Part shown: positions 15,103 to 49,346 of the stretch, piece after piece
How the letters are laid out: every line of letters begins with the position of its first letter
Numbering within the stretch: the first letter of the stretch is position 1
Assembly (NCBI GenBank): GCA_016868855.1
Contig: VGFP01000001.1
Span: forward strand, 310,001-374,000
Source of the DNA: Bacteroidota bacterium
GTDB taxonomy: Bacteria; Bacteroidota; Bacteroidia; Chitinophagales; Chitinophagaceae
Length of the DNA: 64,000 nucleotides
Reading direction: 5' to 3'
The notes under the pieces: generated by a model
What the model was told of the DNA's origin: nothing
Databases searched by the model: none
Seen by the model: only the letters and a program-made list of their open reading frames with translations
Program-made: the position numbers and the translations under genes

Positions 15103-15819
15103 TCAATCAGCTCGTTTTACTTTGCTGGCTCCCGTTGCACTCATTTCCACTTGTGCAGGATTCCCATAATAATGAATATTGCTGGCACCTGTAGCAACGG
15201 CATGTAATTTGTTGGATACATAAATAGTGGAATTGGAAGCTCCAGATACTTTGATGTCTGCAGTTTCTATCTTGAATGTTGATGCCTTTAATTTGCTGGC
15301 ACCTGTCAACACAGCCTCCACATATGCTGCTCTTCCAGTCAACTCAACATCAGAGGCACCGGTAAATTGCAGTTTAACTTGATTACAATCTAGCTTCCCG
15401 AGAAAATCACTAGCACCGGTGAATTTGATTAACAAATCATCCGACTTCAATAAATCGGTCACCAAAAAATTTACAGCTCCAGATGCAAAGATTTCATCAA
15501 TAGTAGGTGCAGATATGTACAACTTGAATTTACCGTCACCCGAAATCCAATTCCTATAACTGCTCTCAAGATCAAACATCAACACTCCACCATTGTTTTT
15601 TACACGGATCCTGTCACGCGCAGATTCAGAATTGGCACTGATCGCAACTGTATAGGTATCACTCACGGAATAATACACCTTGAATGGACCATGGATTTCA
15701 ATTTTTGAAAACCGTCCCATATCTCGCTTTACTGCCATTTGATCATTGATGATCAATTTATCCTGCGCCTGCAAGAGACCGAAAAAAATTAGTCCTAGTA
15801 ATGTAAAGAGTTGCTTCAT
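15103..15819 (-). CDS. Secreted GIN-domain protein (DUF2807, putative adhesin head)
   Basis: 238 residues. A signal peptide (MKQLFTLLGLIFFGLLQAQ) precedes a beta-helix-like body. The motif (T/S)GAS recurs at about 20-residue steps through the second half (FTGASD, FTGASD, LTGASK, VSGASN, ATGASN, ATGASK), the hallmark of the DUF2807 repeat, in which each turn presents a Gly-Ala-Ser corner. Such proteins are periplasmic or surface-exposed in Bacteroidota; function is uncertain, with adhesion suggested only by fold. It ends at the bidirectional terminator shared with the tRNA and is divergent from the TPP-riboswitch gene. Confidence 0.88.
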   Translation of the reverse strand: MKQLFTLLGLIFFGLLQAQDKLIINDQMAVKRDMGRFSKIEIHGPFKVYYSVSDTYTVAISANSESARDRIRVKNNGGVLMFDLESSYRNWISGDGKFKLYISAPTIDEIFASGAVNFLVTDLLKSDDLLIKFTGASDFLGKLDCNQVKLQFTGASDVELTGRAAYVEAVLTGASKLKASTFKIETADIKVSGASNSTIYVSNKLHAVATGASNIHYYGNPAQVEMSATGASKVKRAD

Positions 15820-15893
15820 TTCAGTTTGTTTAACCTTAATACGCTCAACGATGAATTTAGTTACAACAGATCTAATATTTCGAAGATAATTTT

Positions 15894-15921
15894 TTTGAAA
15901 CTGATGGAAAATATAATTTTG
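15894..15921 (+). promoter_or_regulatory. Putative promoter of the TPP-riboswitch transcript
   Basis: TTTG at 15894-15897 and TAATTTTG at 15914-15921 (exact -7 consensus), spacer 16, somewhat short. Transcription would begin close to the first bases of the riboswitch. Confidence 0.5.
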
Positions 15922-15923
15922 TA

Positions 15924-16009
15924 CTGTTCCGGGGTGCTTTGGGTTGATACCAAGGCTGAGAAAAACCCGTTGAACCTGATCAGGATAATGCCTGCGCAGG
16001 GAAGGACAG
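15924..16009 (+). promoter_or_regulatory. TPP riboswitch (THI element)
   Basis: Senses thiamine pyrophosphate in the leader of the TonB-dependent receptor that follows. All conserved blocks are present: the GGGGTGC block at 15931-15937, GCTGAGA at 15955-15961 (pyrimidine-binding loop), ACCC at 15965-15968, the block around CCTGAT and GATAATGCC at 15975-15992 (pyrophosphate-binding arm), and GCGCAGGGAA closing. P1 forms between CTGTTCC (15924-15930) and GGACAG (16004-16009) with one bulged T. A 64-base stretch then leads to the start codon and contains a hairpin that could be the expression platform. Confidence 0.95.
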
Positions 16010-16046
16010 TCTCACCCAAATTTTCCTTTCTCTTCCGGCAGAACCT

Positions 16047-16073
16047 GACTGATCATTTTCAAAATAATCGGTC
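16047..16073 (+). promoter_or_regulatory. Hairpin abutting the receptor start codon (possible expression platform)
   Basis: GACTGAT (16047-16053) pairs with ATCGGTC (16067-16073), one G:T wobble, and ATT/AAT can extend it inside. The 3' arm ends at the base before ATG 16074, so folding would bury the ribosome entry site. Coupling to the riboswitch is inferred from position. Confidence 0.4.
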
Positions 16074-18263
16074 ATGAAATCACATTTTGTACTTGCGTTG
16101 ATGTTGTTCACTTCATTTGATGGTTTATCACAAGTGGTCCAACCAAAAGCGGTTGATACTTTGTCTTTAAGCGATACCAGTCTGAAAAAATCATCTCTCA
16201 TGCCTACCATTGAAATTCAAGGGGTACGAGCGGAGCAGAAATATCCCTTTACACAGTCCATGATCTACAAAAGCAATATTGCTAAAAATAACCTGGGACA
16301 AGACATTCCATTTCTTCTGAATCAGGTACCCGGAGCTGTTGCCAGCTCAGATGCAGGAAATGGTATTGGTTATACAGGCATCAGAATCAGGGGAACAGAT
16401 CCAAACAGGATTAATTTTACCATCAATGGTATTTCATACAATGATGCAGAGTCACAGGGAGTATTTCTGGTGAACATGCCTGATCTTCTGTCATCCACCA
16501 ATAGCATGCAAATCCAAAGAGGTGTTGGTACCAGTACCAACGGATCTGGGGCATTTGGCGCAACAGTGAATATATTGACCAACGAGGTACAGGAGAAAGC
16601 TTACACAGAAATCAACAACTCAGTTGGATCATTCAACACCTTCAAACATACATTCAAAGCTGGAACAGGACTCATCAACAACAGATTCACCGTCGATGTT
16701 AGACTTTCCTCGATCAAAAGTGATGGCTACATTGAAAGAGCCAGCAGCGACTTAAAATCATTTTATATTTCAGCAGCGAGCATCAAAGAAAATTCCTCTC
16801 TGCGGTTCAACATCATATCAGGAAAGGAAAAAACATATCAGGCTTGGTATGGGGTTTCTGAAGAACAAATGAAGATCAACCGAAGATTCAACGAAGCTGG
16901 TATGAGACCTGGTGCTGATCCATATGACAATGAAACAGATAATTATTGGCAAACACATTACCAATTGTTCTATAATAAGAAAATAAACACCAAATGGAAT
17001 TTAAACAATACTGTCTTCACAACCACAGGCAGAGGGCATTATGAGCAATACAAAACCAATGAGAAATTTGAAAAATATGGATTGCCCTCTCCCATCATCA
17101 ATGGAAATACGATAAAATCAACTGACTTGGTCAGACAATTGTGGCTAGACAATATTTTCATCGGAAACAATATTTCGGTAAGACACAAAAATGAAAAGAG
17201 AGAAGTTACCCTTGGTGGCAATATGAGTAATTACCTTGGAGATCATTTTGGTAAAATAATTTGGTCAAAATACGCCATATCAAAAGATTACAAGTGGTAT
17301 GACTTGAATGCAAACAAGTCTGAGCAGTCAGTTTTTGGAAAGTGGATGGAAGAGTCAGGAAACTTCCAATTCTTTGGCGATGTTCAATTGAGAAATATTC
17401 AATACGATATCAATGGATTCAGGAACAATCCAACATTGAATATCAAACAGCAATGGACATTCTTCAATCCCAAGGCAGGTATCAGGTATACAAAAGAAAA
17501 AACAAGTACATATTTATCGTTTGCAAGAGCTACCAAAGAACCCAACAGGGATGATTTTGAGGCAGGGAATATGGAGATTCCTCGTCCAGAGCGACTAGAC
17601 GATTGGGAGGCAGGCATACAACATACGAGTAAAAAATACAGGTATTCAATCACATTCTATTACATGAACTACAAAGACCAGCTGGTACTGACGGGAAGGA
17701 TCAATGATGTGGGTGCTTACACCCGAACCAACATCGCAAAAAGTTTTCGCAGAGGTATAGAATTGGAAGGAAGCTATTCATTTAATCCTTGGCTTCAACT
17801 CACGAGCAACCTTGCGTTGAGTCAAAATAAGATACAATCCTTTACAGAGTATTATGATGATTATGACAACGGTGGACAAAAAACAAATCTTTTCACATCA
17901 ACCAATATAGCTTTTTCACCAGCTGTTGTAAACAATACCATTCTCAGTGCTTCCATCATGAAAAAAACCGAACTGAGATGGATTGCTAAATATGTCAGCA
18001 GACAGTATCTCGATAACACATCCCGCAAGGACAGAAGCCTGGATCCATACCTGGTGAACGACCTTCAAATCAACAGAACATTTTCACTTAAAAATGGAAC
18101 AGCAGTTTCTACAGTAATACAGGTAAACAATCTGTTCAATAAACGCTATGCTCCCAATGGCTATACGTATAGCTATTACTATGGTGGAAATATTATCAAC
18201 AATAATTATTTTTACCCCATGGCAGAGAGGAATTGGATGATCGGATTGAACATATCATTGTAA
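16074..18263 (+). CDS. TonB-dependent outer-membrane receptor, probably for thiamine or a precursor
   Basis: 729 residues. Signal peptide (1-19, ending FDGLSQ), then a plug domain (about 45-170: IPFLLNQVPGAV, GIRIRGTDP, GAFGATVNILTN), then a 22-strand barrel to the C-terminal aromatic/hydrophobic end (GLNISL). There is no CarboxypepD-like N-terminal extension, so it is a classical BtuB/FepA-type receptor rather than a SusC type. Control by a TPP riboswitch directly upstream points to uptake of thiamine or its phosphates; TPP-regulated TonB receptors (OMthi) are known from Bacteroidota. No thi or pnu transporter gene lies beside it, so the inner-membrane partner is elsewhere. Confidence 0.93.
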   Translation: MKSHFVLALMLFTSFDGLSQVVQPKAVDTLSLSDTSLKKSSLMPTIEIQGVRAEQKYPFTQSMIYKSNIAKNNLGQDIPFLLNQVPGAVASSDAGNGIGYTGIRIRGTDPNRINFTINGISYNDAESQGVFLVNMPDLLSSTNSMQIQRGVGTSTNGSGAFGATVNILTNEVQEKAYTEINNSVGSFNTFKHTFKAGTGLINNRFTVDVRLSSIKSDGYIERASSDLKSFYISAASIKENSSLRFNIISGKEKTYQAWYGVSEEQMKINRRFNEAGMRPGADPYDNETDNYWQTHYQLFYNKKINTKWNLNNTVFTTTGRGHYEQYKTNEKFEKYGLPSPIINGNTIKSTDLVRQLWLDNIFIGNNISVRHKNEKREVTLGGNMSNYLGDHFGKIIWSKYAISKDYKWYDLNANKSEQSVFGKWMEESGNFQFFGDVQLRNIQYDINGFRNNPTLNIKQQWTFFNPKAGIRYTKEKTSTYLSFARATKEPNRDDFEAGNMEIPRPERLDDWEAGIQHTSKKYRYSITFYYMNYKDQLVLTGRINDVGAYTRTNIAKSFRRGIELEGSYSFNPWLQLTSNLALSQNKIQSFTEYYDDYDNGGQKTNLFTSTNIAFSPAVVNNTILSASIMKKTELRWIAKYVSRQYLDNTSRKDRSLDPYLVNDLQINRTFSLKNGTAVSTVIQVNNLFNKRYAPNGYTYSYYYGGNIINNNYFYPMAERNWMIGLNISL

Positions 18264-18327: not shown

Positions 18328-18368
18328 ACATATGTTGTATGCATAATAAAAATGCATGCAACATGTGT
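18328..18368. repeat. Long imperfect inverted repeat
   Basis: ACATATGTTGTATGCAT (18328-18344) and ATGCATGCAACATGTGT (18352-18368) can form a 17 bp hairpin with two G:T wobbles around a 7-base A-rich loop. It lies after the receptor gene and covers the ATG (18356) of the following broken gene. No T-run follows, so it is not a standard terminator. Confidence 0.6.
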
Positions 18369-18988
18369 TCAAATCAACAGTAATAGTACTTTTCCTTGTA
18401 GGATGCGGCGTTCAAAACAATATCACCTATTCCTGGTCCAACAAATATTTCCATTGATCCACTCCTTATAAAAAAATATTTGTTGCAGCATTGGTTGCGA
18501 ATCCGCATGTAAGAACACATTTGGAAGAAGAAATGGGAATCGCAGCCAGCAAAAAAGGATTTGCAGTGGAAAGGAGCTGGGATCATTTTCCGCCAACATT
18601 TGAATCAAAGAATCCCCCACCCCGTGAGCGAATGATTGAAAAAATCAAATCGCTTCAATGCGACATTATATTTATCATCAACTTGGTTGATAAAAGAAGT
18701 GAAACTAGATATATACCGGGAGGGTTGGGCTTGTATGGTCCATACCCAGGATATGGATTGTTTTTTGGCGGTTTCTATTCATACTGGTCACCTTTTTTCT
18801 ACGACCCCGGGTATTACGTAACTGACAGGTACTATTTCATGGAAGGAAATTTATTTGACACCAAAACCGAGACATTGATATGGTCGGTTCAAACAAAATC
18901 AATCAATCCCTCCTCTGTTGAGAATTTCAGTAAAAGCTTGATAGAAATATTGATGCAAAAAGCGATCAATGACCTGCAGCAGCATTGA
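18356..18988 (+). pseudogene. Lipoprotein gene interrupted by an in-frame TGA
   Basis: From ATG 18356 the frame encodes a lipoprotein signal (STVIVLFLVGC, lipobox Cys17) and the start of the mature protein, then meets TGA at codon 34 (18455-18457). The same frame continues without another stop to 18988, and the sequence right after the TGA (TPYKKIFVAALVANP) looks like the first core strand of DUF4136-like lipoproteins; the C-terminus (GNLFDTKTETLIWSVQT) fits that family too. Downstream, the first usable starts are TTG 18491 or an ATG near 18533, both inside the domain. TGA is an ordinary stop elsewhere here (gltD, pyk). So this is a nonsense mutant, or a base error in the assembly. The Gly/Tyr/Pro-rich insert (about residues 120-155) is characteristic but of unknown role. 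Confidence 0.7.
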
Positions 18989-49232: not shown

Positions 49233-49334
49233 AAAAAAATAGCAGGTTGATTACATCGCACCGCTCAACCACCTACCCTTGCTACCTTCCGGTCCTGGGG
49301 GAGTTCAGCAGGAGCTGGTCGTGTAAGACCTGCC
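49233..49334 (-). ncRNA. ffs: Signal recognition particle RNA (4.5S type)
   Basis: On the minus strand the conserved apical hairpin is visible: CAGGACCGGAAGGTAGCA, with the GGAA tetraloop and the Ffh-binding asymmetric loop. GCAGGT near the 5' end pairs with ACCTGC near the 3' end (49241-49247), giving a closed rod of about 94 bases, followed by a run of seven T as a terminator. A -7 box lies directly upstream. Confidence 0.93.
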
Positions 49335-49338
49335 AATG

Positions 49339-49346
49339 CAAATATA
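49339..49346 (-). promoter_or_regulatory. -7 box for the SRP RNA
   Basis: Reads TATATTTG on the minus strand, exact consensus, ending 5 bases before the RNA 5' end. No clear -33. Confidence 0.55.

Follow-up and report, generated by a model that had tools for sequence, protein, structure and literature searches.

Within the 64,000-nucleotide stretch of Bacteroidota DNA analysed here (the window; C1:310001-374000 of G000, a genome of 1.43 Mb in 14 contigs that is 87% complete), a TPP riboswitch aptamer stands directly upstream of a TonB-dependent receptor gene. This TPP-sensing riboswitch very probably controls an OMthi/Omr1-type receptor for intact thiamine or thiamine phosphate in a bacterium, probably one of the Chitinophagaceae, that seems unable to make vitamin B1. 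Following the general logic of the family, the receptor would be made and the vitamin salvaged when cytoplasmic TPP is scarce, and when TPP is plentiful the aptamer would close and receptor synthesis would fall. We infer all three of the cargo, the direction of control and a translational mechanism from the features listed here and from their conservation among related genomes.

15890..15897, plus strand: possible -33 promoter element TTTTTTTG, picked by eye
15914..15921, plus strand: -7 promoter box TAATTTTG (Bacteroidota consensus TAnnTTTG), at a position conserved in same-genus leaders
15920..16020, plus strand: TPP riboswitch aptamer (RF00059), 72.2 bits, or 79.9 bits with a model of its own family
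16032..16041, plus strand: CUUCCGGCAG, a possible anti-aptamer, base-paired with the 5' strand of the aptamer in the predicted minimum-energy fold without ligand
16046..16074, plus strand: start hairpin with 5' arm UGACUGAU (16046-16053), loop (16054-16066) and 3' arm AUCGGUCA (16067-16074), ending on the A of AUG
16074..18263, plus strand: TonB-dependent receptor gene of the OMthi type (ORF and Pfam domains), 729 aa, with signal peptide MKSHFVLALMLFTSFDGLSQ assigned by eye

The aptamer was matched over the full length of the RF00059 model (positions 1-105) by cmscan with Rfam 15 and its gathering thresholds, at a score well above the gathering value of 54.3 bits (E 2.9e-12); this is the covariance-model check that the initial annotation of the region had called for. 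The higher score of 79.9 bits was obtained under a covariance model built from 44 family aptamers, this one among the 44. The Rfam alignment bears out the earlier claim that the conserved TPP blocks are present, since P1, P2, P3, P4 and P5 can all be traced together with these blocks; the one stem that is absent is the optional P3a. By covariance-model score and P1-P5 core the sequence is a TPP riboswitch, predicted to bind TPP and to change expression. The limits first proposed, 15924-16074, do hold the aptamer, but their end is already the first base of the receptor start codon. The distance of 64 bases given with them agrees with the 63 nt counted from the end of the extended P1 (16010) to the ATG at 16074, or 53 nt from the end of the Rfam match. 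The riboswitch occupies a 254-nt gap between the receptor and a divergent DUF2807 gene (15103-15819, minus strand), and the absence of an adjacent thiamine-synthesis gene was thus also described correctly. An Rfam TPP scan of the 87% complete assembly returned no second match. The Rfam scan of the window also returned a Bacteroidales_small_SRP RNA at 49236-49342 (minus strand, 91 bits).

Transcription of the leader probably starts at the aptamer 5' edge from a TAnnTTTG promoter, because the position of the -7 box is conserved in the genus: in 23 of 34 same-genus leaders the motif starts 6-9 nt 5' of the aptamer match, where about 0.011 are expected per interval searched. Among 90 family leaders, it occurs within that near range in 20 and anywhere within 80 nt upstream in 65. 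The box TAATTTTG extends two bases into the aptamer match. The T-run of the possible -33 element recurs identically, by eye, in G100, G101, G107 and G116, and 16 nt separate it from the -7 box, which is less than the usual -33/-7 spacing. The -7 consensus is that reported for Bacteroidota (PMC9723704).

The receptor ORF is intact and encodes a protein with an apparent signal peptide by eye and with Plug (37.1 bits) and TonB_dep_Rec_b-barrel (60.5 bits) domains, both above the Pfam cut-offs, which together identify it as a TonB-dependent receptor. Homologues were found in 94 of the 98 family genomes, and those of G100, G101 and G107 are among the most similar (72-85%). Two lengths of N-terminus occur in the family, giving proteins of 715-731 aa, as in the window, or of 783-796 aa (at least 12 long forms); a CarboxypepD_reg-like domain precedes the plug in the one long form tested (L033) and is lacking in the short form L032. 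The gene 3' of the receptor (18356-18988) looks broken, with a lipoprotein-like start (18356-18457) that ends at a stop, followed by a 165-aa ORF (18491-18988) without a Pfam or NCBIfam match; a frameshift, a pseudogene, a sequencing error or two unrelated ORFs would each give this picture.

The protein could in principle bind another ligand, such as a corrinoid or a siderophore, and stand behind a TPP riboswitch by coincidence, a reading that is highly improbable. Its best curated profile is indeed that of the vitamin B12 receptor (TIGR01779), and receptors for siderophores, haem, metals, citrate and PQQ are retrieved by sequence and by fold. However, the cut-off of TIGR01779 is 599.7 bits, of which the match reaches 36.7, and the AlphaFold model behind the fold search is poor (mean pLDDT 59.9), with barrel strands visible and the plug not resolved; an analysis of the binding pocket was dropped for this reason. 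A search of solved structures with the single protein gave nothing at 0.01, and a profile-based search gave distant receptors only. In the PDB, the model retrieved receptor folds, with PqqU/YncD in first (9c4o, E 9.9e-25) and seventh place (6v81, E 7.2e-22). This PQQ receptor is comparable in that it is among the best fold matches and imports a non-iron cofactor, but at 15-16% identity and with a low-confidence model a shared cargo has no support. A coincidental arrangement is also at odds with the synteny of riboswitch and receptor among related genomes.

Among 98 genomes of the same family as that of the window, a sample in which relatedness inflates all counts, a TPP match was found in 95 and a receptor match in 94, and the two are neighbours in 91, with the TPP match directly ahead of the receptor. 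Sorted by downstream gene, the 148 TPP matches of the family precede the receptor (91), a PnuC/PnuT-like gene (14), thiC (13) or none of these (30). One TPP match precedes a gene for a mechanosensitive channel (L076), and another precedes a Methyltransf_28 gene (L080). For the phylum, the best 80 receptors listed from a named collection were used, with 43-58% identity to that of the window. The best-ranked of these belong to Flavihumibacter, Ferruginibacter, Hydrotalea, Sediminibacterium and unclassified Chitinophagaceae, and the lower-ranked to Algoriphagus, Cyclobacterium, Dyadobacter, Pontibacter, Brumimicrobium and others, many of them MAGs with doubtful labels. The model built from 44 family aptamers detects a TPP riboswitch ahead of the receptor gene at 78 of these best 80 loci, 75 of them at 50 bits or more and three (L224, L231 and L234) at about 31 bits; the two misses (L171 and L243) lie near contig ends, where the contig extends no more than 554 nt ahead of the match. 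A conserved TPP riboswitch directly upstream, one mark of OMthi and Omr1 receptors, is thus present both in the family and in the listed loci of the phylum.

The layout of a TPP riboswitch followed by a TonB-dependent receptor gene is common across Bacteroidota and already known from Bacteroides BT2390. According to the available text of PMC5613172, B. thetaiotaomicron has TPP riboswitches on both the OMthi gene BT2390 and pnuT-tnr3, and the likeness to BT2390, drawn from layout and not from sequence, comprises membership of Bacteroidota, a TonB-dependent receptor gene whose 5' UTR contains a TPP riboswitch, and a role in thiamine acquisition (PMC5613172; PMC7366714, both in the portions available). 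The difference lies in the surroundings: in B. thetaiotaomicron, pnuT-tnr3 and an operon for thiamine biosynthesis are present as well (PMC5613172, same portions), whereas the assembly of the window has no ThiC, PnuC-type or TPK match. Likened by description, Omr1, a putative B1 transporter of aquatic bacteria, is likewise a TonB-dependent receptor with a nearby TPP riboswitch, described in the available text for two Flavobacteriales MAG clusters, but it was predicted from metagenomes (PMC10881298). Neighbouring pnuT and TPK genes, a trait of OMthi in many gut Bacteroidetes, were not found here: the assembly of the window has no PF04973 or PF04263 match, and a PnuT-like ORF stands among the next three downstream in one of the 80 phylum loci, some of which are incomplete. 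Such a neighbourhood is no strict requirement, as split operons are known (PMC5613172, same portions).

The gene content of the family is consistent with dependence on imported vitamin. At E 0.001, the 87% complete assembly of the window has no match to ThiC (PF01964), TMP synthase (PF02581) or TPK (PF04263), and this bacterium seems, from its gene content, unable to make vitamin B1; a PnuC-type (PF04973) match is also lacking, which may reflect an assembly gap. Across the 98 family genomes, ThiC was found in 14, TMP synthase above cut-off in 23 (including all 14), TPK in one, ThiL above cut-off in 93 and the receptor in 94. All 84 ThiC-negative genomes carry the receptor, against 10 of the 14 ThiC-positive ones (Fisher p 2.8e-4, with related genomes counted as independent), and the four genomes without a receptor all carry ThiC. 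This distribution links the receptor to thiamine auxotrophy, the other mark of OMthi and Omr1. The earlier proposal of vitamin salvage across the outer membrane is thereby well supported at the level of sequence, through the synteny in 91 of 98 family genomes and 78 of the best 80 loci, the 84 ThiC-negative genomes and the role of BT2390. For the latter, the available text of PMC5613172 states that single deletion of OMthi or pnuT had no effect, and that added loss of biosynthesis made it harmful below 100 nM thiamine.

The riboswitch ligand is TPP, and the riboswitch alone does not prove what the receptor carries. It is improbable, though less so than an unrelated ligand, that the receptor imports the thiamine precursors HMP or thiazole in place of the intact vitamin. 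Precursor uptake is under TPP riboswitch control elsewhere (PMC3766115, in the portion available), ThiE occurs without ThiC in nine of the 98 genomes, and four of seven further TPP sites (L003, L006, L007 and L026) stand, by eye, ahead of a ThiM-ThiE pair, confirmed by Pfam for L006. Yet ThiC, ThiE and TPK are all below cut-off in 75 of the 98 genomes, every one of them with a receptor and that of the window included; import of precursors alone appears unlikely, because these genomes would lack ThiE, the TMP synthase that joins them.

Uptake of intact thiamine or a thiamine phosphate is therefore preferred, and the kinases of the family bear on which form is taken up. The largest class, 70 of the 98 genomes, has the receptor and ThiL, without ThiC, ThiE or TPK over the cut-offs. 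A second TPK profile found a match in one of 12 genomes, again G031, and the E. coli-type ThiK (TIGR02721) was over its cut-off in none of 20, with three weak matches. The substrate of ThiL is TMP. Retention of ThiL in the absence of ThiC, ThiE and TPK therefore implies that TMP is imported or is made from thiamine by a kinase beyond the reach of TIGR02721. PnuT-like genes under TPP control, present in 14 genomes of which eight have no ThiE or TPK, speak for uptake of free thiamine and an unrecognised kinase over import of TMP. A kinase beside pnuT was sought in the 14 fetched TPP-pnuT loci (L061-L074): none was recognised in four, and in the other ten the next gene is, by eye, acyl-CoA-dehydrogenase-like, with no obvious link to thiamine; Pfam Acyl-CoA_dh_2 was confirmed in both of two tested, in one of them barely. 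Five of the 98 genomes, that of the window among them, have the receptor but none of ThiC, ThiE, TPK and ThiL, two of the five (G030 and G033) having partial ThiL matches. Within the genus of the window, ThiL is over cut-off in 31 of 41 genomes, including G100, G101 and G107, and is not in G000, G106 (95% complete) and G109 (98% complete). Its absence from G000 may be an assembly gap; were it truly absent from these three, TPP itself or another kinase would be needed. In PMC11346370, genomes are classed by thiC, thiE, thiG and thiL, and TPK is not named in the available text.

The proposed point of control is the translation start, where a hairpin would cover the start codon or its immediate 5' neighbourhood, and control of translation is likely in this family. 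Bacteroidetes lack a Shine-Dalgarno sequence, and structure in the start region tunes translation (PMC6847099, as far as available). Translational riboswitches that hide a Shine-Dalgarno sequence would resemble the present one in blocking the start of translation, but differ in their target: Bacteroidota lack that sequence (PMC6847099, same portion), and here the hairpin lies on the start codon or the preceding bases, in some genera through pairing with signal-peptide codons. According to the passages available, PMC5613172 calls the mode of TPP riboswitch action in Bacteroidetes uncertain, and reports that transport-operon transcripts did not change significantly with thiamine; the lack of a BT2390 transcript response is as expected if translation is controlled.

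These start regions were compared in 117 of 122 family and genus leaders, the same set being used for anti-aptamer and accessibility tests; G013, G014, G026, G029 and G121, in which the aptamer and the chosen ATG lie over 150 nt apart, were left out. The family leader set comprised 90 of 91 leaders (no in-frame ATG was found in G077), the genus alignment 33 of 34 (without G121) and the phylum-locus analysis 73 of 78; L141, L152, L166 and L167, without a receptor match, were left out. Start codons were picked by signal-peptide score, independently of RNA structure, and the controls, 250 random longest-ORF ATGs of the 80 phylum loci, surely include some wrong starts. The ATG follows the aptamer match by a median of 66 nt in the 90 family leaders, by 44-93 nt in 76 of them and by up to 222 nt in the rest. 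From -50 to +33, the mean z was -1.74 in the 117 leaders and +0.05 in the controls (Mann-Whitney p 5e-26, counting related leaders as independent), and z fell below -2 in 49 of 117 leaders against 19 of 250 control starts. The mean was -1.33 in 32 leaders from L212-L247, loci of which most are not labelled as Chitinophagaceae. Mean pairing at -12 to +5 differs little, at 0.51 in leaders and 0.47 in controls (p 0.01).

Four types of start-region helix were recognised. In type A (23 leaders), UGUUCCC in the UTR pairs with the signal-peptide codons GGGAACA. These leaders were picked by the motif, which forces most of the pairs but not the seventh; this is C-G in 20, U-A in two and A-U in one with zero mismatches, and amounts to one covarying pair. 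The type A helix also tops the list of an unpicked helix search. Type B comprises 17 leaders starting ATGAAGAGG; for 13 of them, CCUCU/AGAGG or a longer version of it is the best ungapped helix. In type C, which covers most of the genus of the window, CUGUUUUUGU pairs with ACAAAAACAG directly 5' of the ATG, with standard pairs in 25-32 of 33 leaders per position, reflecting mostly invariant sequence and not covariation. Type D, comprising the window, G100, G101, G107 and G116 (the latter four by eye), has a shorter hairpin beside or on the ATG, formed in the window by UGACUGAU and AUCGGUCA. As a family-wide statistic, the ungapped helix between UTR and codons was discarded as weak (-12.5 against -11.2 for swaps and -10.9 for shuffles, 90 leaders).

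In the genus, aptamer CAGGGAAGGA can pair with UTR UCCUUUCCUG, three bases of which are common to the type C arm, and this overlap suggests competing folds. The helix is paired in 91.9% of alignment cells, with no covariation, and is better than shuffled sequence at the 0.05 level in 22 of the 33 genus leaders and in 29 of 117 overall. When folds with and without the aptamer 3' strand are compared, the start opens by more than 0.1, the expected direction, in 21 of the 117 leaders and closes in three, with no change above 0.1 in 93; in the genus it opens in 13 and closes in two of 33. That the start hairpin proves switching in general is not supported by equilibrium folding. In the window, the hairpin alone has -8.3 kcal/mol, and its central pair has a probability of 0.97 in the free leader and 1.00 with the aptamer enforced. 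Ligand-bound and free folds do not differ at the start, and no switch is visible at equilibrium; start accessibility is the same with and without the aptamer 3' strand (0.195 and 0.196). The anti-aptamer helix of the window is not better than shuffles (p 0.4), and the starts of seven of 40 other window ORFs are at least as paired as that of the receptor. Pairing of the P1 3' strand with an arm of the start hairpin was dropped as a candidate, with five pairs by eye in the window and no match in G107.

It is unlikely, but a good deal less so than either alternative cargo, that the riboswitch acts on transcription, through termination or Rho, and that the start hairpin is incidental. The window hairpin is not significant, its start region being no more structured than shuffles (z 0.12), and folding shows no switching. 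For B. thetaiotaomicron, with three TPP riboswitches according to the available text of PMC7366714, a 2019 preprint by Costliow, Degnan and Vanderpool cited there has a title stating that Bacteroides TPP switches regulate transcription or translation, and transcripts of the thiamine biosynthesis operon do respond (PMC5613172, as available). On the other hand, no terminator-like site lies between aptamer and ATG, the sole plus-strand site (16140-16155) falls within the receptor gene, sites are no more numerous than expected by chance, and start regions across the family are more structured than control starts.

Control of translation remains the preferred reading, and it is combined here, tentatively, with a second proposal: (a) a 5' UTR folded onto the start codon and, in some genera, the first signal-peptide codons may stop translation, such that RNA pairing shapes the protein N-terminus (e.g., KFLGT), and (b) most of the family may feed imported TMP to ThiL or use an unrecognised thiamine kinase, given that receptor and ThiL are retained but ThiC, ThiE and TPK are absent. 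No description of the start-codon pairing or of the ThiL-without-TPK pattern of this family was found among the papers listed from the open-licence literature.

The locus in the window is a known kind of regulatory unit, and its value lies in two testable points. The TPP-controlled receptor is nearly universal in the 98 genomes of this family; 84 of them lack a match to ThiC and on that ground appear incapable of making vitamin B1. It makes testable how a riboswitch exerts control without a Shine-Dalgarno sequence, and which form of vitamin B1 is imported by bacteria that have ThiL but neither TPK nor TMP synthase.
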